Source of the DNA: Clostridia bacterium
Lineage (GTDB): Bacteria > Bacillota > Peptococcia > Peptococcales > BICA1-8
Direction: 5' to 3'
Assembly: GCA_012720075.1 (NCBI GenBank)
Contig: JAAXZE010000126.1
Location: forward strand, 1 to 34,369
DNA: 34,369 nt
Part shown: piece by piece, positions 7,966 through 34,080 of the stretch
Position numbering within the stretch: the stretch's first letter is position 1
How the letters are laid out: each line of letters starts with the position of its first letter
Notes under the pieces: generated by a model
What the model was told of the DNA's origin: nothing
What the model saw: only the letters and a program-made list of their open reading frames with translations
The model's database searches: none
Program-made: the position numbers and the translations under genes

Positions 7966-9753
7966 TTAGAAACCTAAATGCACCCCATCAACCTGGTAGA
8001 CGTTAATCCCCTGGGCTTTCCCTTTGACCTTGATCTCGCCCAGGCTAGTAACTGCAAGTCTATCCTTGACCTTTTCGTATACGGCCTGGGAGATCAGGAT
8101 CTGGCCCGGTTTGGCATTGCTCTCCAGGCGGGCGGCGGTATTTACGGTATCTCCGATGGCCGTATAGTCCATCCTGAAGCTGGCCCCGATATTCCCTATG
8201 ACAGCAGGTCCGGTGTTCACTCCTATTCCGAACTGGACAGTGCGGCCATATTTTTCTTCCAGCCTCTGCTGCAAGGGAACTGATCCCTCCTTCATAGCCC
8301 AGGCCGCTTGGACGGCTTTAAAGCAGTGGTCCTCTAGATCCAACGGTGCGTTAAAGATGGCCATAGCCGCATCCCCGATGAATTTGTCCAGAGTGCCTCC
8401 GTACTTGAAAATACACTGGGCCACCAAAGTCAGGTATTCGTTGAGGATTTCAACCACTTCTTCAGGGGCGGCAGCTTCCGAAAGGGGGGTAAAACCCCGT
8501 ATATCCACAAACAGGACTGTAATCTCCCGCCTGCTTCCCCCCAGCTGCAGAGCCTTTTCTTCGCCGCCCTCCAGCAGCTTGTCCACCACCTGGGGAGCCA
8601 CATAGCGGCTGAAGACACCGGTGATGCGGCGGCGTTCCAAAAGCTCACTGATGTAATTGGCCGCCAAAGCCACCAGGTAGCCCAAAGCCAAAAGGAGCAA
8701 GGGATAAAGCAAAGAAAGAAGATAACCCTTGCTGTACATCAACCGGGCGACGGACAGATAACCTGCCGCCAGCGCTGAGAGGAGCAGTACGCCCTTCAAG
8801 GGGCTGAGCCGGGTAAAGCCAAAAGCTGCCGCTATCCCAAAAAGGACGATGGCCAGCAGGGTAGCGCTGAAAGGCGCCCTCTGCAAATAATTGCCTCGAA
8901 GCAGGTTCTGCACGATATTGGCATGGATTTCTATCCCATACATAGGCACCTCAGGGGCCAGGGGAGTAAAGTAAAAATCCCCTAAACCCACGGTATAGGG
9001 ACCAATCAGGACAATCCTGCCCTGAAAATACTCGGGCGGCACCTCACCGCTTATTACCTGAGAATAACTGATATGCTCAAAATCACCGGGGATACCAGCA
9101 TAGTTTATTTCCAACCGTTTGATGGGGTCCAGGGGCAGCCGGTTCAGATCAGGAGCAGGCAGCCCCTTCTTCTGACAATACTGTTCATAAACCTGCCAGG
9201 CAAAACTGGGCACAGTTTGACCCTGGTAATCCAGATACAGGGCAGTCTTTCTGATAATCCCGTCCGGGTCGGGAAAGGTATTGATATGCCCGGTGATAAA
9301 CGGATCGGGAAACTCCGGGAAAGGCACCACCAAATTATCGGTTTTGATGGCTCCCTGCCGGGCGGAAAAACCCTCCAGATTGGCATAGACGGGCAAGACA
9401 ACATTGCCTGCCTCCCGGATAGCTTCTACCAAAGCCAGGTCTTCTTCCGGGTCAGCGGCCGCCTCGCTGAAAATCAAATCAAGGCCGATGGCTGCCGGCT
9501 GCCCTTGGGACAGGATCTTGATTAACTCCCCATGAACATAACGGGGCCAGGGGAAACGTCCCAGATCCTCCAAGCTCTGGTCATCAATAGCCACCAGGAC
9601 TATTTCCGTATCCACAGGCCCCTTTCTCTTCAAAAAACTGTCCTGCAGTTTGCTGTCCAAAGTGGCGAAAATATCCACATAGGCAAAAAAAACAAGGAAC
9701 AGGCAAAGGAAAACTATCAAAATGTATTTTTTATTAGAACTAAGGCTCTTCAT
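7966..9753 (-). CDS. CHASE2-domain class III adenylate cyclase
   Basis: The 595 residues comprise an N-terminal membrane anchor (10-30), an extracytoplasmic CHASE2 sensor (~45-290: IVLVAIDDQSLEDLGRFPWP, GLDLIFSE, NTFPDPDGIIRKTALYL), three close membrane helices (~297-368) and a cytoplasmic cyclase domain. The catalytic residues are complete: metal-binding Asp417 (LFVDIRGF) and Asp461 (KFIGDAAMAIF), adenine-contacting Lys457 and Thr531, and transition-state Asn538 and Arg542 (DTVNTAARLE). The Lys/Thr pair points to ATP as substrate and class IIIb. It would make cAMP from ATP in response to an external signal. The start at 9753 has AGGGAG upstream and lies 16 bases after the HD-GYP gene, the last gene of a five-gene operon with surface proteins that could supply the signal. 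Confidence 0.93.
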   Translation of the reverse strand: MKSLSSNKKYILIVFLCLFLVFFAYVDIFATLDSKLQDSFLKRKGPVDTEIVLVAIDDQSLEDLGRFPWPRYVHGELIKILSQGQPAAIGLDLIFSEAAADPEEDLALVEAIREAGNVVLPVYANLEGFSARQGAIKTDNLVVPFPEFPDPFITGHINTFPDPDGIIRKTALYLDYQGQTVPSFAWQVYEQYCQKKGLPAPDLNRLPLDPIKRLEINYAGIPGDFEHISYSQVISGEVPPEYFQGRIVLIGPYTVGLGDFYFTPLAPEVPMYGIEIHANIVQNLLRGNYLQRAPFSATLLAIVLFGIAAAFGFTRLSPLKGVLLLSALAAGYLSVARLMYSKGYLLSLLYPLLLLALGYLVALAANYISELLERRRITGVFSRYVAPQVVDKLLEGGEEKALQLGGSRREITVLFVDIRGFTPLSEAAAPEEVVEILNEYLTLVAQCIFKYGGTLDKFIGDAAMAIFNAPLDLEDHCFKAVQAAWAMKEGSVPLQQRLEEKYGRTVQFGIGVNTGPAVIGNIGASFRMDYTAIGDTVNTAARLESNAKPGQILISQAVYEKVKDRLAVTSLGEIKVKGKAQGINVYQVDGVHLGF

Positions 9754-9769
9754 CAGTACAACTCCCTTA

Positions 9770-11254
9770 TTACTCCCAAATCCGGCTTTCTTTAAAAGCC
9801 GCCACCAGCAGGCTGTCCAGTTTGCCCTCTTGGGCCATTTTTTCCAGAATGTTAAATGCTGCCTGGGGAGCCATGGCTTTTTTATAAGGCCTGTCTGAAG
9901 CCGTTAAGGCATCATAAACATCCAGAATGGTAAGAATCCTGGCTTCCAAGGGGATTTCCCCGTCTTTTAAGCCCTGGGGATAGCCTGTCCCGTCCAACAG
10001 CTCATGATGACTCAAGGCCCAAGCAGGCACGTCTTTATAACGGCTATTGAAGCGGAACTTCTCCAACATCCTTTGGGCAACAGTCACATGGCTTTCCATG
10101 ATCTTGCGCTCCTCATCGGTCAGGGTGCCTTTGGAGATGCTGAGGCATTTTAATTCCTCAGCCGTTAAAAGCCTCACTCCCGGCAAAGGTTCCCAGTGAG
10201 CCAGCTCGGACAACTTCCGGACTAAATCCTGATCCACAAAAGTTGCCGGGTGGTTGGCCTTTTCAATGAGCTCCCGGGCTTGGCTGATACGAGCCAATTG
10301 CTCCCGGTGCTCCTCTTCTTGCTCCCTGTCGACAGCCCCGGCCACCTTTTTCTCCAGGAAAGCCCTGATCAGGCTGTTTTCCACCAGTTCCAGCCTCTGG
10401 CGCACATACTCAATCCTCTCTCACAAGCTGCTGGGCTTGTCCATAACGCTCAAAGGGATGGCCACCTTGCCTATATCATGGAGCCAGGCCGCCATGACCA
10501 GTTGGGCTGTCCTGTTTTCGGAAAATTTCTCATTTTTGAAAGGCCCGTCGGTTTGACTGTCAAGATAGGCGGCAAATTTTTCCGCCAGCCGGGCAATATT
10601 GCGGGTATGGTTGACATTGTAAGGGGTACGGGCATCTATAGCCGTAGCCATGACCTGGACAAAAGAATGAAAAAGATTGTCAATCTCCTGAATATACTGC
10701 ATATTTGTCAAGGATACGGCCGCTTGGGAAGCCAAGAAAAAGACCATCTTCTCCAGTTCGGGGTCAAAAGGTATGGTTTGGCCCTGTTCATTTTTGGCAT
10801 TCAAAAGCTGCAGGACCCCGATGACTTCCCCTTCATAGTTCTCCAGGGGAACCACCAGCATGGAGCAGGTGCGATACCCGGTGATGGCGTCATACTTCTT
10901 GGGGCCGGAAAAATCAAAACCGCCGGCCTCATAAACATCAGGAATGTTGACGCTCTTCTTATTTATAGCCACCCAGGAAGAAACATTGGCAGGGTTAAGG
11001 GGAACGGGAGGCAAATCAACAGGCTCCCCCTGACCTCCCTGATATATGCCCAGGGTATCATTATGGATAATCTTAAAAATCAAGCGATCCTCTTCGCATA
11101 AATACAAGGTGCCTGCATCGGCATTGGTAATCCTGCGGGCCTCCCGCAAAATCCGTTCCAAAAGTTTGGTATGGTTCTTCTCCGCAGACAGGGCAATCCC
11201 GATATTCAGCAGTTCCTCCAAATGTTCAACAAGTTTGATGTTGGCAGTACTCAT
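9770..11254 (-). pseudogene. GAF-HD-GYP phosphodiesterase interrupted by one in-frame TGA
   Basis: Reading one frame across the whole interval gives a normal GAF-HD-GYP protein of about 493 residues apart from a TGA at 10421-10423 (codon 278). Upstream of it are a GAF domain (~28-190) and the HD half (His216 in NHTRN; WLHDIGKVAIP with His259-Asp260). Downstream, in the same frame, is the GYP half: HHELLDGTGYPQGLKDGEIP and ILDVYDALTASDRPYKKAM. HD-GYP proteins hydrolyse c-di-GMP or related cyclic dinucleotides. Context around the stop (MDKPSSL-stop-ERIEYVRQRLEL) suggests that glycine is the usual residue, so GGA to TGA is a one-base change. It may be a true nonsense mutation, a sequence error or readthrough. 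The start overlaps the MBL gene's stop by four bases (ATGA), so translation is coupled. All other residues look conserved, so loss would be recent. Confidence 0.85.
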
Positions 11255-17509: not shown

Positions 17510-17541
17510 AAAAAAAAAGACAGGTATTGCTTAAATACCTG
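17510..17541 (-). terminator. Rho-independent terminator of the peptide export operon
   Basis: On the minus strand CAGGTATT and AATACCTG pair in an eight-bp stem (17521-17541) with a five-base loop, followed by TCTTTTTTTTT (17510-17520). It lies about 50 bases after the stop of the precursor peptide gene and separates the export operon from the NHL/FecR/cyclase operon. Confidence 0.9.
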
Positions 17542-17594
17542 CCACCCCAAAATTTGACATAGAACCTTTTATTCTTGCCATAAATTTTTTCAAC

Positions 17595-17798
17595 TTATTT
17601 TATCGATAGGTTCTCCCCGAGAGCACTAATGCCACCTAAAACATTTGGGGCAGATTGATTAATATTCTTAGTTCCACCCCATGTTTCAGCGCAAAACTTG
17701 GTTCCACCCCATGTTTCAGCGCCCCCAAGAACCTTCTTCATCTCTTCCTTGCTAATCTTTAAATCCTTTGGAATATCGACGATTTTAATTCTGGCCAT
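17595..17798 (-). CDS. Double-glycine precursor peptide (RiPP/bacteriocin-like) with tandem core repeat
   Basis: The 67-residue product has a charged leader ending in a classical double-glycine site: KISKEEMKKVLGG (residues 14-26). The C39 peptidase of the upstream exporter would cut after Gly26. The predicted core starts with two adjacent 10-residue units, AETWGGTKFC and AETWGGTKNI (27-46), encoded by a 30-bp tandem duplication. It continues through a second VLGG (53-56) to an 11-residue tail, ISALGENLSIK. One cysteine (Cys36) and two tryptophans are present. A very strong AGGAGG site lies eight bases before ATG 17798. It is the last gene of the export operon, 119 bases after the SurA-N-like gene. 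No LanM, YcaO or radical SAM enzyme is in the window, so the peptide may be exported unmodified. I do not recognise a characterised relative. Confidence 0.8.
   Translation of the reverse strand: MARIKIVDIPKDLKISKEEMKKVLGGAETWGGTKFCAETWGGTKNINQSAPNVLGGISALGENLSIK
17671..17730 (-). repeat. 30-bp tandem duplication inside the precursor core
   Basis: GTTCCACCCCATGTTTCAGC followed by GC (plus strand) occurs identically at 17671-17692 and 17701-17722, spaced exactly 30 bases. It keeps the reading frame and duplicates AETWGGTK. The first base beyond the identity is a synonymous difference in the Thr codon, so the duplication is recent or under strong constraint. Confidence 0.9.
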
Positions 17799-17917: not shown

Positions 17918-18334
17918 TTATTTTTGCCCAACCGCCTTTGCCAGCCAATCCTCAAAAGCCATTTCACGGATTAAATCCTGAACTTCATCTGAAGCTAAAT
18001 ATTTTTCCTTGTCGCATTCATTTAACAGCTGGTTTTTCAACTCATAAATCAACAAATTGGATTCCAGAAAGTTTTCCAGGGTGTCCAGGGTGATACCGTT
18101 TTCCTTAAGCCATTCTTCTGTAGCAGCAGAAGTTGTAAGGTTATTTATGATGCGGAAAGTATCACAAGCTTTCTGCAGTTCCTCATCACTGACAGATAAC
18201 CCCCTACTTTTTGCCTCTTCTACAGCCACTTTCCTTTTCACAACCTCCTCAAGAGCCTTGGCAAAACTACCGTCCAGTTTTGCGTAATCAACAACCTCAG
18301 CAACACTTACTTCCAATTCATCATAAAAAGACAT
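17918..18334 (-). CDS. SurA-N-like chaperone domain protein lacking the parvulin domain
   Basis: The 138 residues align by eye with the N-terminal half of the next upstream gene. Shared landmarks are an AEE/EEA helix, SVSDEELQKACDTFRIINNL against IASDEELQQAFDNFRKSQGL, EEWLKENGITLDTLENFLES against ELWMAERGISLDEMEKELEI, and a final amphipathic helix. It stops where the PPIase domain would begin. It has no signal peptide or membrane segment, so it should act in the cytoplasm. AAGGAGG precedes the start. Its place between the parvulin and the precursor gene suggests a chaperone or leader-binding role for the exported peptide, which is inference. The family's chaperone function is known from SurA and trigger-factor-like folds, not from this protein. 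Confidence 0.7.
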   Translation of the reverse strand: MSFYDELEVSVAEVVDYAKLDGSFAKALEEVVKRKVAVEEAKSRGLSVSDEELQKACDTFRIINNLTTSAATEEWLKENGITLDTLENFLESNLLIYELKNQLLNECDKEKYLASDEVQDLIREMAFEDWLAKAVGQK

Positions 18335-18401: not shown

Positions 18402-19145
18402 TTATTCTTCTGCCCATTCCAATTTTGCCTTCTGCTCCGCATCGGCTAAAAAGCGGTTGTAAAGAATGTTTCTGATTTCCTTCTCATTATTTTCATCAAG
18501 GCCGGCGGGATATAGGGCATTAACCATAATCAGGCTGTAGCCATCATCACCTTCAAAAGGACCCGCCACATCTCCCGGCTCAGCTCCGAAAACAGCGGAT
18601 GCAATATCGGCCCTTAGCTCAGGCCTTCTAATCATTCCTATGTAACCACCCTGTTTGGCCTTTTCGTCAATGGAATATTCCCGGGCCAGAACCATGAAAT
18701 CCGCTTCCTCTTCCTTTAACTGGGCCAGCAATTCCATGGCCACTTCCTGCTCTTTTACCGTCAGAATGTATAATTCGGCAGCATCCATGTTGGATTTGTT
18801 TTCGGCAAAATATCTCTCCACGGCTTCTTTGGGAATAGAATCCCTGATCTTTTCCGCCAGTATTTTGATTTCCAACTCCTTTTCCATTTCATCGAGAGAA
18901 ATCCCTCTCTCCGCCATCCAGAGCTCAGTATCTTTAGCGGCATATAATCCCTGACTTTTTCTAAAATTGTCAAATGCCTGCTGAAGCTCTTCATCACTGG
19001 CGATGATGTTTTTTTCAGCAGCATACTCTTCTATTACAACCTGCTCTATAAGCGGCAGGAGGACAGAAAATCTGCCGTCGGTCCTGACTTTCTGAGCCAA
19101 TTGCCGTAGGGAAATATCCTTTCCGTTAATGGATAATACTTTCAT
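18402..19145 (-). CDS. Cytoplasmic SurA/PpiC-type peptidyl-prolyl isomerase
   Basis: The 247 residues have a SurA-N-like helical domain (1-~115) and a parvulin domain (~120-215). The parvulin is recognisable by AELYILTVKEQEVAMELLAQ, DFMVLAREYSIDEKAKQGGY, IGMIRRPEL, SAVFGAEPGDVAGPFEGDDG and YSLIMVNAL. There is no signal peptide or lipobox, unlike PrsA and periplasmic SurA, so it should act inside the cell. AGGAGGTG lies upstream of ATG 19145, and the HlyD-like gene ends 16 bases before it. Parvulins beside HlyD and peptidase-containing ABC genes are known from bacteriocin-type clusters in other phyla, notably cyanobacteria. It probably helps keep or fold the precursor peptide before export. 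Confidence 0.85.
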   Translation of the reverse strand: MKVLSINGKDISLRQLAQKVRTDGRFSVLLPLIEQVVIEEYAAEKNIIASDEELQQAFDNFRKSQGLYAAKDTELWMAERGISLDEMEKELEIKILAEKIRDSIPKEAVERYFAENKSNMDAAELYILTVKEQEVAMELLAQLKEEEADFMVLAREYSIDEKAKQGGYIGMIRRPELRADIASAVFGAEPGDVAGPFEGDDGYSLIMVNALYPAGLDENNEKEIRNILYNRFLADAEQKAKLEWAEE

Positions 19146-19856: not shown

Positions 19857-22800
19857 TCAGCCATGGAGCTGCTGGCTGTTCAAATAAAAATATAAACCCT
19901 TTTTCTCCATAAGCTCGTAATGAGTGCCTTTTTCAACAATCAACCCCTTGTCTAAAACTACAATAAGGTCAGCGTTGCGTATGGTGCTGAGCCTGTGGGC
20001 AATGACAATGGTAGTCCGGTCACGGAGTATATTATCAAGGTTTTGTTGAATAATCTTTTCCGATTCCGTATCCAAGGCGCTGGTTGCCTCATCGAGTATG
20101 AGTATTTTAGGCTTTGTGAAAAGAGCCCTGGCAATAGCTATACGCTGCCTCTGCCCTCCCGACAGGCTCATACCTCTCTCACCAATTATTGTTTCATATC
20201 CCAGCGGGAGTTCAGAAATAAACTCGTGGGCTCCGGCCAGCATTGCTGCTGTTATAACATCCTGCATAGGGGGATCCGATACTCCGAAGGCGATATTTTC
20301 TTTAATTGTACCGCTGAAAAGAAAATTATCCTGGAGTACAACACCAATCTGTCTTCTTAAGCTGCCGGAATCAATGTTCCTTATATCAATTCCGTCGATG
20401 AGAACCGTCCCTTCTGTAGGCCGGTGCAGCCTCAGTATAAGGTTTGCCAGGGTGGTTTTGCCGGAACCGCTTCGTCCAACCAGTGCCACTGTCTGGCCGG
20501 GGGCTATTTCAAGGTTTATATTCTGAAGCACATTTCTACCTTCCTTGCTGTAGCGGAAGGTCACATTTTTAAAGGTAATCTGGCCTTTGACGGGAGGCAT
20601 GATTATATTGGCAGTCTTATTCTGTTCCGGCTCTGCTTCCAGGACGTCATTTAATCTTTCAAGAGCGATGCGGGCTTCCTGTATTTTATCCCACAGCCCT
20701 ACAGTCCTCAGGACAGGGGCAATGACGCTTCCCAGAAGTGCGGTAAATGCCATAAGCTGGCCCACGGATATCTCCCCTGCCATCACCAGCCTGGCACCAA
20801 ACCAGAGTATAAGGGTAGTGCTGAGTGTCTGAAGTATCCTGCTTATTGAATCCGCAGCCGTAGCTATCATGGATGCCTTTTGCTGCAAGCCCATCGTCCT
20901 GGACAATTTCTCTTCCCATTTCCAGCGTACGGGTTTCTCTGCCGCCAGGCCTTTGACAGTGTTTATACCGCTGATGGATTCAACAATGTAAGACTGGGTT
21001 TCCGCCGCTGCCTGGAATGTTTCCCTGCTGACTTTTTTCATGTAAGGTGTGAATACCAAGGTCATTACTGCAAAAAGAGGTAGGAACAATACGGCCAACA
21101 GTGACAGCTTCCAGTTATAATAAAACATCAGGCACAAATAAACTATTATTGTGAAAAAATCCAGGATCACCGATAAGGTCGTTCCGGTAAGCAAATCTCT
21201 TATCTTGGAATTTTCATTGAACCTGGAGATTATGTCCCCTACCTTGCGGTCTTCAAAAAACTTCATAGGCAGGCCTAAAACATGGTTATAGAACTGGATC
21301 ATAAGGGAAGTGTCAATTTGCCTGGCAGCAAAAACAAGCATGTACTGACGCAGAGCTGCCGTTGCCACCTGGAACACAGCAATGATTATCATTCCGGCCA
21401 GCATTATATTCAGCATGGTGCTGTCTTGCTGTACAAGCACCTTATCAACAATATTCTGGGTGAAAATGGGAGATGCCAGTCCAAACAACTGCAGTATGAG
21501 GGAAGCGACAAGGATTCTTATAAGCAACTTGTTCTGAGCCTTTATGTAAGGGAAGAAACGGGCAAAAGTAGATTTTGAGGGTTCTACCAGATACAAATCG
21601 GGGGTAGGTTCTAAAAGAAGCAGGATTCCATCCCAGTCCTTTATAAACTCTTCCTTAGTATACTTCTTTAGCCCTATGGCAGGGTCGGCCACAACCACAG
21701 ATTTTTCATCAACCCGGTAAACCACAATATAATGATATCCCGCCCAATGAGCTATGGCAGGTAATGGAGAGCTTTTAAGCACCTCAAAATCACATCTTAT
21801 GGCTTTTGCTCTAAAGCCCAAACTTTCCGCAGTTTCAGCAAGGCTGAGGAGAGTAGCGCCCTCTCTGTTAACGTTAGCCATTTCCCTCAGCCGGTTAATA
21901 CTGATTTTTTGATTATAGTAGGAACAAATCATAGCCATTGAGGCAACTCCACAGTCCATTTGGCTCTGCTGGAGAAGCACAGGAAAGGTGCGCTTTCTTT
22001 TAGGAATGAACTTCTCTTCTTTTGCTTCCTCTTCAACCATCTCCGGAGCAACTTCTTTATATTCAACAAAATTTCCTGAGAGCCGGTAAGCTTCCGAAGC
22101 AGCTGAAGTTTCGTCAAGACCGGAGTCTTTTTCAATTCCCGAAAGCATTTCTCTTGCGCTTTTGCTGTAGCCGGCGGCTACTCCCAAAATAGCATTTTTA
22201 ATCTGGGGAATTGTGGTGATTATTTTTTCAAAATCCTGTTTGCTCAGGCGATAGGTTTTAACTTCAGTTTTTGCAATAACGCTGGCTGCCCTGGGTGCTC
22301 CTGTAAGCAGAGCCAGTTCACCAAAAAACTGTCCTTGATACAGTACGTTTAACAATTTTCGTCCGAGGCTTTCTTTTACAACCTCCACCTCTCCTGAACG
22401 GATTAAATAAAAAGCGTCCCCTTCTTCACCTTCCCGCACAATATAATCCCCAGGATTAAAGTCAACGCTGACGAAGCAGTCTAAAAAGCCTCTCAATTCT
22501 TTTGCATCCAGAGGAGAAAATACCGAACACTGCTTTATAAAATTTCTTAAGCTAATATCTGATAAATAATCTTCAAAATAGTGCTTCAACTCCAAATGTC
22601 TTTCAAGTATTTCAAGAAACCTTTTCCGGTCCAGTTTAAGTACAACCAGGTCTCCGCTGGCTCTTACGGTAAATTCATTGTTTTCCCCTGTCATCAGGCC
22701 TTGTTCCCCGAAATGGCCGCCTTTGGTCAGAGTGCCCAGGCTGGCTTCTTTGCCTTCGCTATCCAGACCCACAATGCGGGCTTTGCCTGAATATACAATA

Positions 22801-23006
22801 TAGAAGGCATCTCCCGGTTCTCCGGCCCTGCAGATAGTATTACCCAATTTATACTTCTCTACCTGAAAACCCGTAGCCAGGTTATCCAGTTCCTCTTCAG
22901 AAAGATAATTTGAAAATAAAGTCTTTTTTAACAGTTCTTTTATTTCTTCACTATTCAAATTCAATCCACCCTTTAATGTAAAATCCGGTGCCTCATGATG
23001 TTTCAC
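19857..23006 (-). CDS. Peptidase-containing ABC exporter with two N-terminal cNMP-binding domains
   Basis: The 1049 residues form one polypeptide with five parts. The first cyclic-nucleotide-binding domain (~25-148) has a degenerate phosphate cassette: Glu101 is present but Asn110 replaces the Arg. The second (~158-275) has an intact cassette, FFGELALLTGAPRAASV, with Glu230 and Arg239, very like protein kinase A. The C39 peptidase (~340-470) has Cys352 (QSQMDCGVAS), His425 (GYHYIVVY) and Asp441 (ADPA), which cuts double-glycine leaders. The membrane domain spans ~485-790. The ATPase has Walker A GRSGSGKT (844-851), LSGGQ (948-952), Walker B ILILDEA and His1004. It would cleave and export the 67-residue precursor under nucleotide control. 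GTG 23006 overlaps the CRP-like gene's stop by four bases; TTG 22958, with GGGTGG seven bases upstream, is an alternative start. Confidence 0.95.
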   Translation of the reverse strand: MKHHEAPDFTLKGGLNLNSEEIKELLKKTLFSNYLSEEELDNLATGFQVEKYKLGNTICRAGEPGDAFYIVYSGKARIVGLDSEGKEASLGTLTKGGHFGEQGLMTGENNEFTVRASGDLVVLKLDRKRFLEILERHLELKHYFEDYLSDISLRNFIKQCSVFSPLDAKELRGFLDCFVSVDFNPGDYIVREGEEGDAFYLIRSGEVEVVKESLGRKLLNVLYQGQFFGELALLTGAPRAASVIAKTEVKTYRLSKQDFEKIITTIPQIKNAILGVAAGYSKSAREMLSGIEKDSGLDETSAASEAYRLSGNFVEYKEVAPEMVEEEAKEEKFIPKRKRTFPVLLQQSQMDCGVASMAMICSYYNQKISINRLREMANVNREGATLLSLAETAESLGFRAKAIRCDFEVLKSSPLPAIAHWAGYHYIVVYRVDEKSVVVADPAIGLKKYTKEEFIKDWDGILLLLEPTPDLYLVEPSKSTFARFFPYIKAQNKLLIRILVASLILQLFGLASPIFTQNIVDKVLVQQDSTMLNIMLAGMIIIAVFQVATAALRQYMLVFAARQIDTSLMIQFYNHVLGLPMKFFEDRKVGDIISRFNENSKIRDLLTGTTLSVILDFFTIIVYLCLMFYYNWKLSLLAVLFLPLFAVMTLVFTPYMKKVSRETFQAAAETQSYIVESISGINTVKGLAAEKPVRWKWEEKLSRTMGLQQKASMIATAADSISRILQTLSTTLILWFGARLVMAGEISVGQLMAFTALLGSVIAPVLRTVGLWDKIQEARIALERLNDVLEAEPEQNKTANIIMPPVKGQITFKNVTFRYSKEGRNVLQNINLEIAPGQTVALVGRSGSGKTTLANLILRLHRPTEGTVLIDGIDIRNIDSGSLRRQIGVVLQDNFLFSGTIKENIAFGVSDPPMQDVITAAMLAGAHEFISELPLGYETIIGERGMSLSGGQRQRIAIARALFTKPKILILDEATSALDTESEKIIQQNLDNILRDRTTIVIAHRLSTIRNADLIVVLDKGLIVEKGTHYELMEKKGLYFYLNSQQLHG

Positions 23007-23683
23007 ATGTATAAGTTTGCTTCATTTTTTAGCCTTTCAACGTCACGGATTATCAAGTGCCTTTTTTCAAAGGTGATTATTCCCCGGTCTTCCAAATCGT
23101 TATAAATCTTGGTTACCGTCTCTCGTACAACACCGGCCAGTGCTGCAATGTCGCTGTGAGTAAGCCTTGGTTTTATGAGAATTCCCTTTTTATGCTTTAT
23201 AGAATAACCCTCTGCCAGGTAAAGCAATTGGCCGATTACCCTACCACGGGAAGAGTCGCCGGCAAGTTGGGTTATTTGTTTATTGGCCCACCGCAATCTT
23301 TCAGTTACTATCTCAGTGATTTTCAGCCCAAAGGCAGGAATTGTCAGCAAAAGCTCCTCAAAAAGGTGTTGAGGGATAAAATATGCTTCCGTTGGCTCAA
23401 TAACCTTAACCGATGCAGACCTGAGGTTTTGGCCGAAAGCTGCCATTTCCCCTATAACATCCCCCGGTTTCAGTATTGCCAGAGCCCTTTCCCTCCCGTT
23501 TTCAGTATTCTGATAAACCTTCACATAGCCTTCTGTAATAAAATAAACTCCATCAGCAGGATCACCTTCATTAAAAACAACTGTTCCACGTTTGAACCGC
23601 TTGCGTATTGCATTTTTTTCAATTTGCTGCTTCTGCTCTTTACTTAGGTGGTAGAAGGCATCATTTTTCAGGAAACTATGCAT
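23003..23683 (-). CDS. CRP/FNR-family transcriptional regulator, cAMP-type
   Basis: The 226 residues contain a cyclic-nucleotide-binding domain (~20-115) and a winged helix-turn-helix (~165-215). The phosphate cassette GDVIGEMAAFGQNLRSASV keeps the Glu (79) and Arg-Ser (88-89) that bind cAMP in CRP. The recognition helix reads VVRETVTKIYNDLEDRGII, retaining the RETV of CRP. There are no cysteines, so it is not an FNR-type iron-sulphur sensor. The gene is first in the export operon and overlaps the exporter by four bases, so it probably controls that operon, perhaps including itself. The start has GGGGAG six bases upstream. Cyclic-nucleotide sensing is inferred from residues only; c-di-GMP or another ligand is possible. 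Confidence 0.9.
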   Translation of the reverse strand: MHSFLKNDAFYHLSKEQKQQIEKNAIRKRFKRGTVVFNEGDPADGVYFITEGYVKVYQNTENGRERALAILKPGDVIGEMAAFGQNLRSASVKVIEPTEAYFIPQHLFEELLLTIPAFGLKITEIVTERLRWANKQITQLAGDSSRGRVIGQLLYLAEGYSIKHKKGILIKPRLTHSDIAALAGVVRETVTKIYNDLEDRGIITFEKRHLIIRDVERLKNEANLYM

Positions 23684-24626: not shown

Positions 24627-25253
24627 CTACATTACGGGAAATAATATAAAAATGCCCACCGTCCATAAAGCATGGGAGATAATCAAAGGGAAGATGTTTT
24701 TTTCATACATATAAATAAAGCCCCAAAATAACCCTGCTACCAGGGCGGCCATGGTCAGCATGAAATTTCCGGAGGAAATATGTACTCCTGCATAAATAAT
24801 ACTCCCTAATAACCAGCCTGGAAAATCTCCGAATTTTTCCATGGCCCATTTTTGCAGAAAATTCCTCCAAAAAATTTCTTCTCCCGGACTGGTAATAAAC
24901 AAAAGCACCAAGCCAATAATTAAAATATCGCCCTGGGTTCTAATATTATAAATTGATGATATTTGGGAATCGGCAAAATTAAATAAGAGTTGGGAGAAAA
25001 AATTACCCAGCCGGAAAATGAAGTACAATACTACAGCAGAGGCAACACCAATAAATAGACCTCTCCAAGTAATATCTACTTTACGGAGGGGAAACCCGCC
25101 CCAAAAAATAGCCAGAACACTTAAAGTTGTTGCGGCTATACTCATGGATAACCAGAAATTTAGTAATTGAACTGAAAAGGTAAGATACCAAAAGAAAAGA
25201 GCCAGAATTAAAGTTATAATTACCTGAAAATCTTTAATCTTTTTATAAGACAT
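24627..25253 (-). CDS. CPBP family intramembrane metalloprotease
   Basis: The 208 residues form about six membrane helices. The CPBP/Rce1-type catalytic motifs are present: Glu125-Glu126 and Arg130 in SPGEEIFWRNFLQKW, His158 in IIYAGVHISSG and His194 in LIISHALWTV. Members cleave membrane-associated peptides or act in bacteriocin self-protection; the substrate here is unknown. AGGAGG lies six bases before ATG 25253 and the UbiA-family gene ends nine bases upstream, so the two form an operon. A second CPBP gene lies at 26745, too different to be a fresh duplicate. Confidence 0.88.
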   Translation of the reverse strand: MSYKKIKDFQVIITLILALFFWYLTFSVQLLNFWLSMSIAATTLSVLAIFWGGFPLRKVDITWRGLFIGVASAVVLYFIFRLGNFFSQLLFNFADSQISSIYNIRTQGDILIIGLVLLFITSPGEEIFWRNFLQKWAMEKFGDFPGWLLGSIIYAGVHISSGNFMLTMAALVAGLFWGFIYMYEKNIFPLIISHALWTVGIFILFPVM

Positions 25254-26744: not shown

Positions 26745-27545
26745 TTATAAAGTATGTAAATTAACATGCTTTACATCTCTAAAATGAGAGGAACTTAAAT
26801 AACTCCCCATTAGTATTAATGCAGCTGCAAGATACAGCACAGTAAATACCACAAAAAAATAAGTGTCATCGGGGCAGAATACCATGGACAAATTAAAACA
26901 GAAGTGAATCCAAAATGCGTTGAAAAGGTTATCTGACTTCTTCATAATAACTGCCATGATAAAGGTTAATGATGTCAGGGTTACTAAATTTTCAATGATA
27001 TAAAGAAGAAGCGACCATCCGCTGTAATCGGTCGAGACAAACCAAAGCGGCGCATGCCAAAATGCCCAAATTACACCCAAGGCAACATTCCCTCTTATAA
27101 ACCCATATCTTTTCTCTAACTCCGGACGCAAGTATCCACGCCATCCTGATTCTTCGCCGGATGCTCCCTGTAAAAGGGTGAACAAAAGGGCGCCCGGCAG
27201 TATGGACGGATCTAATAAAAGTTGCCCGGTAACAGATGTCTTTCGGATTGAGGATATTACCAACGCCGATAATATGAGAACTCCCGCCGCAATTGCAAAT
27301 ACAAGAAAAATATGACCTATTTGTAATTTATCTTTGAAAGCCCTGTGATAAAATTCTTTTACTTTCAGATCGGACTTAAGCTTTTTCAGCATAGCTAGGA
27401 GCACAATTGTCGGGGACCAGCTGCATAATACAACAACCCATTGCATCGCCTCAGGCGTACCATGCAATACCTGTGATACCAGGCCACCAAGCCCTAAGAC
27501 CATTACCCAAAACAACAAGTAAGTATTCATTACATACTTCCACAT
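26745..27545 (-). CDS. CPBP family intramembrane metalloprotease (second)
   Basis: Starting at ATG 27545 (AAAGGG nine bases upstream) gives 266 residues; a TTG 24 bases earlier is less well placed. Eight or so membrane helices surround the catalytic motifs [20 protein letters not shown] (Glu131, Glu132, Arg136), [12 protein letters not shown] (His164) and [11 protein letters not shown] (His214). This is the larger CPBP subtype often annotated as CAAX prenyl protease-like. It stands alone between a lipoprotein fragment and a long intergenic hairpin. The substrate is unknown. Confidence 0.85.
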
Positions 27546-27744
27546 TACGTTAAGCCCTTTCTCTTTCAATACTTCTCATCCCTTTCGATATGCAGTTTTG
27601 TAGTACAATATCCGGCTGCCTGTATCGTACATTAATTACTAACTATTTATTAATGCTTTACAGATTTTTGAACATAACCCTTCCAGTTATTTCTTTATCA
27701 CTGATTAGTATAACTTGTATATCCGTTCACCTCAGAATTAAAAA

Positions 27745-33333: not shown

Positions 33334-34080
33334 TCAGTTAATTATTTCACCCATGTTTTTATTCAAATTTTCGCCCCATTCCTGCCTTTCCCTGTTTGTT
33401 AGCTTCCACTCGGTTGCTTCGCCAATAATCCTTAAAGGTTCTTTTGATCGATAAGAACGCGTTAAGTTACCAGGAAATTTTTGATCAGTAACATTTGGGT
33501 CGTTTTCAAATTCACCTATTGGTTCTACTATATAAATGCGTTCTCTTCCTTCTCCTTTTGCTAACGCTGCTGCCAGTCCTGCAACATTGACATTAGCAGT
33601 GAAATAAATGTGGTTCATTTTAAGATCGGGTTTGTAATTTGAATCTCCTCCCGCTGTCAGTAAATCACCGATCTGCAAATCTGCCTTTGTCCCATGATAA
33701 AATGGTCCTTCATCAGTGGGCGCACCTTTATATGAATTTGACAGTTCATAATATTTTTGGGCATTATCAGAATCACCCAACTCCTCAAAACATTTGGCAA
33801 TGTTTAGATATAAAGTTGGGTATGCGCTCTTAACATTTTCATCATTTATATTTAGTGCACACTGCAAAGCCGTTTCCATCCATTTCAATTTGTCTGTAAT
33901 ACTCTTTTGTTGACGAGCTAAATGATAAGCCGCAATAAACCTTTCATAGTCGTCTGTTGCTTCATTCCATGCTTTATGAAACATCTTGACGGCATCTTCA
34001 ATTTTTCCGTTTTCCTCCAAACTCATCCCGCTCATGCAGAGTTTTATAACGACGTTATTCGGATCAAATATTGCTGCCAT
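33334..34080 (-). CDS. TPR-Arr fusion: rifampin ADP-ribosyltransferase-like
   Basis: Residues ~8-118 are helical TPR-like repeats (SLEENGKIEDAVKMFHKAWN, FIAAYHLARQQKS, TLYLNIAKCFEELGDSDNAQ). Residues ~123-226 match Arr closely: GPFYHGTKADLQIGDLLTAG, MNHIYFTANVNVAGLAAALA, ERIYIVEPIGEFENDPNVTD and FPGNLTRSYRSKEPLRIIGE. The three Arr residues needed for NAD+-dependent ADP-ribosylation of rifamycins (His19, Tyr49, Asp84 in the mycobacterial enzyme) are His129, Tyr159 and Asp194 here, all at a constant offset of 110. It may inactivate rifamycins, or the TPR part may direct it to a protein. GGAGG lies seven bases before ATG 34080. An IS21 end lies 150 bases upstream. Confidence 0.9.
   Translation of the reverse strand: MAAIFDPNNVVIKLCMSGMSLEENGKIEDAVKMFHKAWNEATDDYERFIAAYHLARQQKSITDKLKWMETALQCALNINDENVKSAYPTLYLNIAKCFEELGDSDNAQKYYELSNSYKGAPTDEGPFYHGTKADLQIGDLLTAGGDSNYKPDLKMNHIYFTANVNVAGLAAALAKGEGRERIYIVEPIGEFENDPNVTDQKFPGNLTRSYRSKEPLRIIGEATEWKLTNRERQEWGENLNKNMGEIIN

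Follow-up and report, generated by a model that had tools for sequence, protein, structure and literature searches.

A double-glycine precursor peptide with a duplicated core segment, encoded beside a C39 transporter and SurA-type proteins in a Clostridia bacterium

Cyanobacterial group I clusters combine a long-type transporter carrying a CAP_ED domain with HlyD and SurA proteins, and the table of the same study lists one group I cluster for Synechococcus elongatus PCC 7942 (PMC3140520). Synechococcus elongatus exports the EbfG biofilm proteins by means of the C39 transporter PteB (PMC4997328). In the PCAT HetC, ppGpp was bound by the N-terminal domain, whereas cAMP was not (PMC10986499). The C39 peptidases read the pattern L(-12)xxxE(-8)L(-7)xxxxGG with a hydrophobic residue at -4, presented on a short helix. 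Positions -4, -7 and -12 pack in a groove of the peptidase, and in PCAT1 affinity falls strongly when alanine replaces L(-7) or L(-12) (PMC6959990, PMC6363468).

We have analyzed a stretch of 34,369 nucleotides (the window), which is one entire contig (34 kb) of a 2.64-Mb genome of a Clostridia bacterium, 98.5% complete and assembled in 206 contigs. On its minus strand a CRP-type regulator, a transporter, an HlyD-like protein, a PpiC-like protein, a SurA_N-like protein and a precursor peptide are encoded in that order, with intergenic gaps of -4, 17, 16, 67 and 119 bp (Table 1). A terminator-like hairpin lies directly 3' of the precursor gene. The precursor is therefore probably the last gene of the unit, with the NHL and FecR genes beyond it being separate. 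With 119 bp between it and the SurA_N gene, it may have a promoter of its own. From the sequences we consider it fairly likely that a single cut after Gly26 gives a 41-residue peptide, exported by the neighboring transporter with SurA-type escorts and probably unmodified.

Table 1. Positions of features in the window and of cyclase genes in related loci
Feature	Position	Strand	Evidence or remark
CHASE2-class III nucleotide cyclase	7966..9753	-	PF05226 and PF00211; near transporter gene
Intrinsic terminator-like hairpin, directly 3' of precursor	17519..17543	-	10-bp stem, T9
Precursor peptide gene, 67 aa	17595..17798	-	Translation; ribosome-binding site AAGGAGG; leader kept in other genomes
26-bp direct repeat, copy 2, one synonymous difference	17667..17692	-	Gene bases 107-132
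26-bp direct repeat, copy 1, encodes first AETWGGTK unit	17697..17722	-	Gene bases 77-102
Stand-alone SurA_N-like all-helical protein, 138 aa, without signal peptide	17918..18334	-	Pfam SurA_N_3 E 4.5e-6 (27.0 bits, just under the cut-off of 27.2)
PpiC/SurA-like protein, TIGR04500-like, without signal peptide	18402..19145	-	Rotamase PF00639 E 8e-15; hydropathy
Short HlyD-like membrane fusion protein, one N-terminal membrane segment	19162..19839	-	PF13437 E 5e-11
Peptidase-containing ABC transporter: two cNMP-binding, C39 (C352, H425, D441), ABC membrane and ATPase domains	19857..23006	-	
CRP/FNR-type regulator	23003..23683	-	Domain search; 4-bp overlap with transporter gene
CAAX-type membrane proteases (PF02517), possible immunity proteins	24627-25253 and 26745-27569	-	
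Cyclase genes near transporter, other loci	L009 7422-9230; L038 619-3699		

The first-pass annotation had placed the precursor at the correct coordinates, and the strand is the minus strand; the plus strand there is interrupted by stops. A strong ribosome-binding site, a Shine-Dalgarno AAGGAGG, lies shortly 5' of the ATG. The leader comprises residues 1-26 (window 17798-17721), MARIKIVDIPKDLKISKEEMKKVLGG, and is followed by the core of residues 27-67, AETWGGTKFCAETWGGTKNINQSAPNVLGGISALGENLSIK. Written to display the repeat, the protein reads MARIKIVDIPKDLKISKEEMKKVLGG / AETWGGTKFC AETWGGTK NINQSAPNVLGGISALGENLSIK. Aligned at a lag of 30 bases, the two repeat copies share 25 of 26 nucleotides, and the sole mismatch is synonymous (ACC/ACT). 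They are exactly identical over a run of 22 bases, whereas no run exceeded 12 bases in 300 shuffles of the codons, and we have rejected a chance repeat. This region had been described as two 10-residue repeats made by an in-frame 30-bp duplication. The 30-bp period stands, but what can be recognized as duplicated spans 26 bp and repeats just 8 of the 10 residues. The tandem AETWGGTK unit is the product of a small in-frame duplication. The copy number is that read from a 206-contig assembly, where collapse or expansion by the assembler is possible.

No relative of the core was found by the searches, as the first-pass annotation had anticipated in knowing no characterized peptide with such a core, and by this measure the predicted exported core with its duplicated segment is new. 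A search of genome contigs with the precursor gave a single locus, matching over the leader. No relative of the precursor was found in plasmid records (tblastn, E<=1) or in viral contigs, and the PDB sequence search gave one chance match (E 0.55). The precursor belongs to no Pfam family. In NCBIfam there were three leader matches, all below cut-off. One of these families, TIGR04149, describes GG leaders modified by radical SAM enzymes; its weak likeness to residues 14-37 scores 17.3 bits against a cut-off of 25, placing the precursor outside the family, and the window lacks a radical SAM partner.

The leader has the features expected of a substrate of the neighboring C39 transporter, in which Cys, His and Asp are intact. 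Upstream of Gly26 we find I-12, E-8, M-7, V-4 and GG, so that the original assignment as a double-glycine precursor agrees with the C39 consensus. The motif VLGG does recur at residues 53-56, and it had been suggested that the peptidase could cut there too, to give a repeat peptide of about 30 residues and a tail of 11. The exact recurrence is unusual, being seen in 0.2% of core shuffles, and of the 14 cores in the leader family 5 have an extra V/I/L/Y-GG, that of the window being one of them. However, any [VIL][LMIV]GG occurs in 2.7% of the shuffles, and any hydrophobic residue followed by GG in 20%. The residues preceding the second site are N-12, S-8 and A-7, with a proline at -6, all of which oppose helix docking. 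A leader profile built from 13 other leaders of the family gives +50.7 bits for the first site and -20.6 for the second. Upstream of the second site only, the score is -30.4, and 65% of shuffled cores score as high. We have therefore rejected the idea that the second GG is a regular site for the C39 peptidase, and release of two products is very improbable. Since the first site fits the consensus and the second does not, a single cut is expected, after Gly26, and the core is probably released whole.

The transporter holds the sole C39 domain of the genome, which also has one precursor of this leader family. Its catalytic Cys, His and Asp are invariant in the three transporters compared. A complete motif resembling a phosphate-binding cassette, FGELALLTGAPRAASV, is present in the second cNMP domain; the first domain is without the PRAA part. 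Against TIGR04500 the protein at 18402-19145 scores 120.8 bits and that at 17918-18334 scores 49.7. As the curated cut-off is 180 bits we have rejected membership for both proteins, which are related only. The structure model of the SurA_N-like protein has a pLDDT of 78, and its best fold matches in the PDB are to SurA, with modest significance (probability 1.00, E 0.017, TM about 0.5). Judged from hydropathy, the N-termini of the PpiC-like and SurA_N-like proteins contain no strongly hydrophobic segment in the four genomes compared. This suggests that they are cytoplasmic and act before export, unlike SurA and PrsA. The SurA_N-like protein is probably an escort or partner of the precursor.

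These components suggest how the peptide might be exported. The 26-residue leader would dock on the C39 domain of the neighboring transporter, which would cut once, after Gly26, and the resulting 41-residue peptide would leave by way of the transporter together with HlyD. In the cytoplasm, the SurA_N-like and PpiC-like proteins would probably keep the precursor unfolded and pass it to the transporter, and nucleotide bound to the N-terminal cNMP domains would probably gate export.

Judged on gene layout, the window matches the cyanobacterial group I bacteriocin-type clusters (PMC3140520), having a long-type C39 ABC transporter with an N-terminal CAP_ED/cNMP extension, HlyD, a SurA/rotamase protein and a GG-leader precursor, with no modification gene. 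It differs in its leader, of the type ARIKIxDxPKDxxISxEEMKKVxGG, in the extra stand-alone SurA_N protein and in having two cNMP domains. The export kit is thus of a known kind; what is new is the core, this leader class in such a layout and the stand-alone SurA_N protein adjoining the precursor. The plain layout of transporter, HlyD, SurA and GG peptide, described in cyanobacteria, is seen here in other bacteria too, where the leader is of a distinct class.

The leader family is rare. None was found beyond the window's own genome in a sample of 399 genomes from its phylum. Elsewhere the leader is present in genome G035, from the same class as the window, and in G429, G816 and G884, from the phylum of a deltaproteobacterial MAG. 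There are three such peptides in G035, about 10 matches in G429, one in G816 and six matches in G884, with unrelated cores that share nothing evident. In a gap-free alignment of the leaders M1, I4, I6, E19, K21 and G26 are invariant in 12 of 12. The first-pass annotation had held that relatives lacking the GG site and the repeats would refute its reading. The site is kept, as GG in 11 of the 12 leaders and as AG in the other; the repeat is found in none. Two cores of G429 (L032 9631-9813 and L034 443-613) bear a resemblance to a fragment of Hcp (GESQDKDHKNWGDLLSFS) and to one of DUF4157 proteins (SRPSDPYEKEADGTADLVM).

The order transporter, HlyD, PpiC, SurA_N and precursor is common to the window, G816 and G035. 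The G816 locus carries these five genes and, like the window, lacks an enzyme next to the peptide. The G035 locus comprises FecR, a CHASE2-cyclase, transporter, HlyD, PpiC, SurA_N, a SPASM radical SAM protein inserted at this point, three precursors and YcaO. The transporters of G035 and G816 are 75% and 42% identical to that of the window, and the SurA_N-like proteins of G035, G429 and G816 share 43-51% identity with that of the window. As in the window, a SurA_N-like protein is encoded adjacent to a precursor in G816 and G429:C2, and in G429 and G884 SurA_N proteins are encoded near precursors, together with radical SAM and YcaO genes. SurA_N-like proteins are in this way closely tied to the precursors. 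The CRP regulator is a poor marker for locating the module in other genomes. By eye, the SPASM radical SAM protein of G035 (L009 14658-16037) ends in an apparent SurA_N-like region at its C-terminus, in which case partner and enzyme would be one fused protein. Leader-like N-termini (MARIVIKDI, MARLQIKDLPD, MPRIQIVDL and MPKIKEIPLPQD) are present on several proteins encoded near precursors, namely a B12-radical SAM protein, a YcaO protein, a methyltransferase and one unidentified protein (L033 12652-14091 and 15153-16586; L061 1575-2717 and 5047-6846).

The leader is often paired with tailoring, because the sister clusters carry enzymes: radical SAM-SPASM and YcaO in G035, YcaO in G884, and B12-radical SAM and YcaO in G429. 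In the window the first-pass annotation had noted no tailoring enzyme adjacent to the precursor. Searches with Pfam and NCBIfam extend this to the whole 34-kb contig, and no dedicated enzyme accompanies the precursor in the way that defines a RiPP. The genome-wide search was directed at YcaO and SPASM proteins. It found no YcaO and five SPASM proteins (NirJ1, NirJ2, the SCIFF maturase and two weak tungsten-maturase-like proteins), among which the SCIFF maturase alone exceeds the cut-off of a RiPP-maturase family. A literature search for SurA/PpiC proteins with YcaO and radical SAM RiPPs gave nothing.

It is possible that an enzyme of another class acts in trans from elsewhere in the genome. 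The core might then be a RiPP, for example with a graspetide-like Thr/Lys-Glu crosslink in the repeated ETWGGTK units, and the PpiC-like or SurA_N protein might be the partner of the enzyme, as MirC is for MirB. The enzymes of the sister clusters are in keeping with this, as is the recurrence of TIGR04500 proteins in graspetide loci (PMC8939145). In the rosaritide cluster MirA/MirB/MirC/MirD a TIGR04500-type SurA-like protein is also found beside a PCAT and precursor, the window's proteins scoring below the TIGR04500 cut-off. There MirC complexes the ATP-grasp enzyme MirB as an essential partner, and corallotide is a known graspetide with five repeated motifs (PMC13097080). However, such an enzyme is absent from the window contig, as YcaO is from the genome, and the SPASM proteins offer just the SCIFF maturase. 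Moreover, the PpiC protein of the window retains a strong rotamase match, whereas the C-terminal domain of MirC is reported to be unlike a PPIase domain. We consider modification from a distance unlikely, and the exported core is probably not enzymatically modified. The small system could address whether SurA-type partners escort unmodified precursors besides helping enzymes.

The peptide could be a matrix or adhesion peptide in the manner of EbfG and PteB, a bacteriocin or a signal. We lean slightly to the first by analogy, since the layout resembles that of the Synechococcus system. EbfG1-4 with PteB (PMC4997328) and the window both have small GG-motif proteins with a C39 transporter, export being a prediction for the window. 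No database match joined EbfG to the core of the window, and the likeness is one of layout.

Proteins of the PF02517 type act as bacteriocin immunity proteins in lactic acid bacteria. Two such CAAX-type membrane proteases are encoded on the strand of the regulator gene, 1-3 kb upstream of it, so the peptide might be a bacteriocin with immunity provided by one of these. This concerns the role of the peptide and leaves the export mechanism as it is. The two genes lie outside the operon, the family is common, and on reading the ORF lists we noticed no gene of this type beside the modules of G035 or G816. A bacteriocin is thus a minority possibility, and a matrix or adhesion peptide retains our slight preference.

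HetC of Nostoc PCC 7120 is likewise a PCAT with an N-terminal cNMP-type domain, which is needed for its function (PMC10986499). No GG substrate is known near HetC, in contrast to the transporter of the window. The small system could address which ligand is sensed by the cNMP domains of transporters of this kind, given that ppGpp is reported for HetC, whose substrate is not known. A class III cyclase is encoded near the cNMP transporter gene in three genomes, at a distance of about 10 kb in the window, 0.4 kb in G035 and 5 kb in G816. The window cyclase is a possible source of the ligand. The proximity may be due to chance, and we offer it as a lead only. Taken furthest, this would be a nucleotide-gated export module in which a nearby cyclase makes the ligand and SurA-type escorts deliver the precursors, with one leader class across phyla while lineages swap cores and enzymes; here the enzymes would have been lost and the core, by duplicating its repeat, would be on the way to an adhesive or matrix peptide. 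We regard this broader scheme as speculative and improbable as a whole.

Two other genes of the window have unusual features. A GAF-HD gene (9770-11254) has an in-frame TGA at 10421-10423 on the minus strand, just past the HD motif, and could reflect a pseudogene, a sequencing error or recoding. At 33334-34080 on the minus strand, a rifampin ADP-ribosyltransferase (Arr-ms) domain is fused behind a TPR-like N-terminus.
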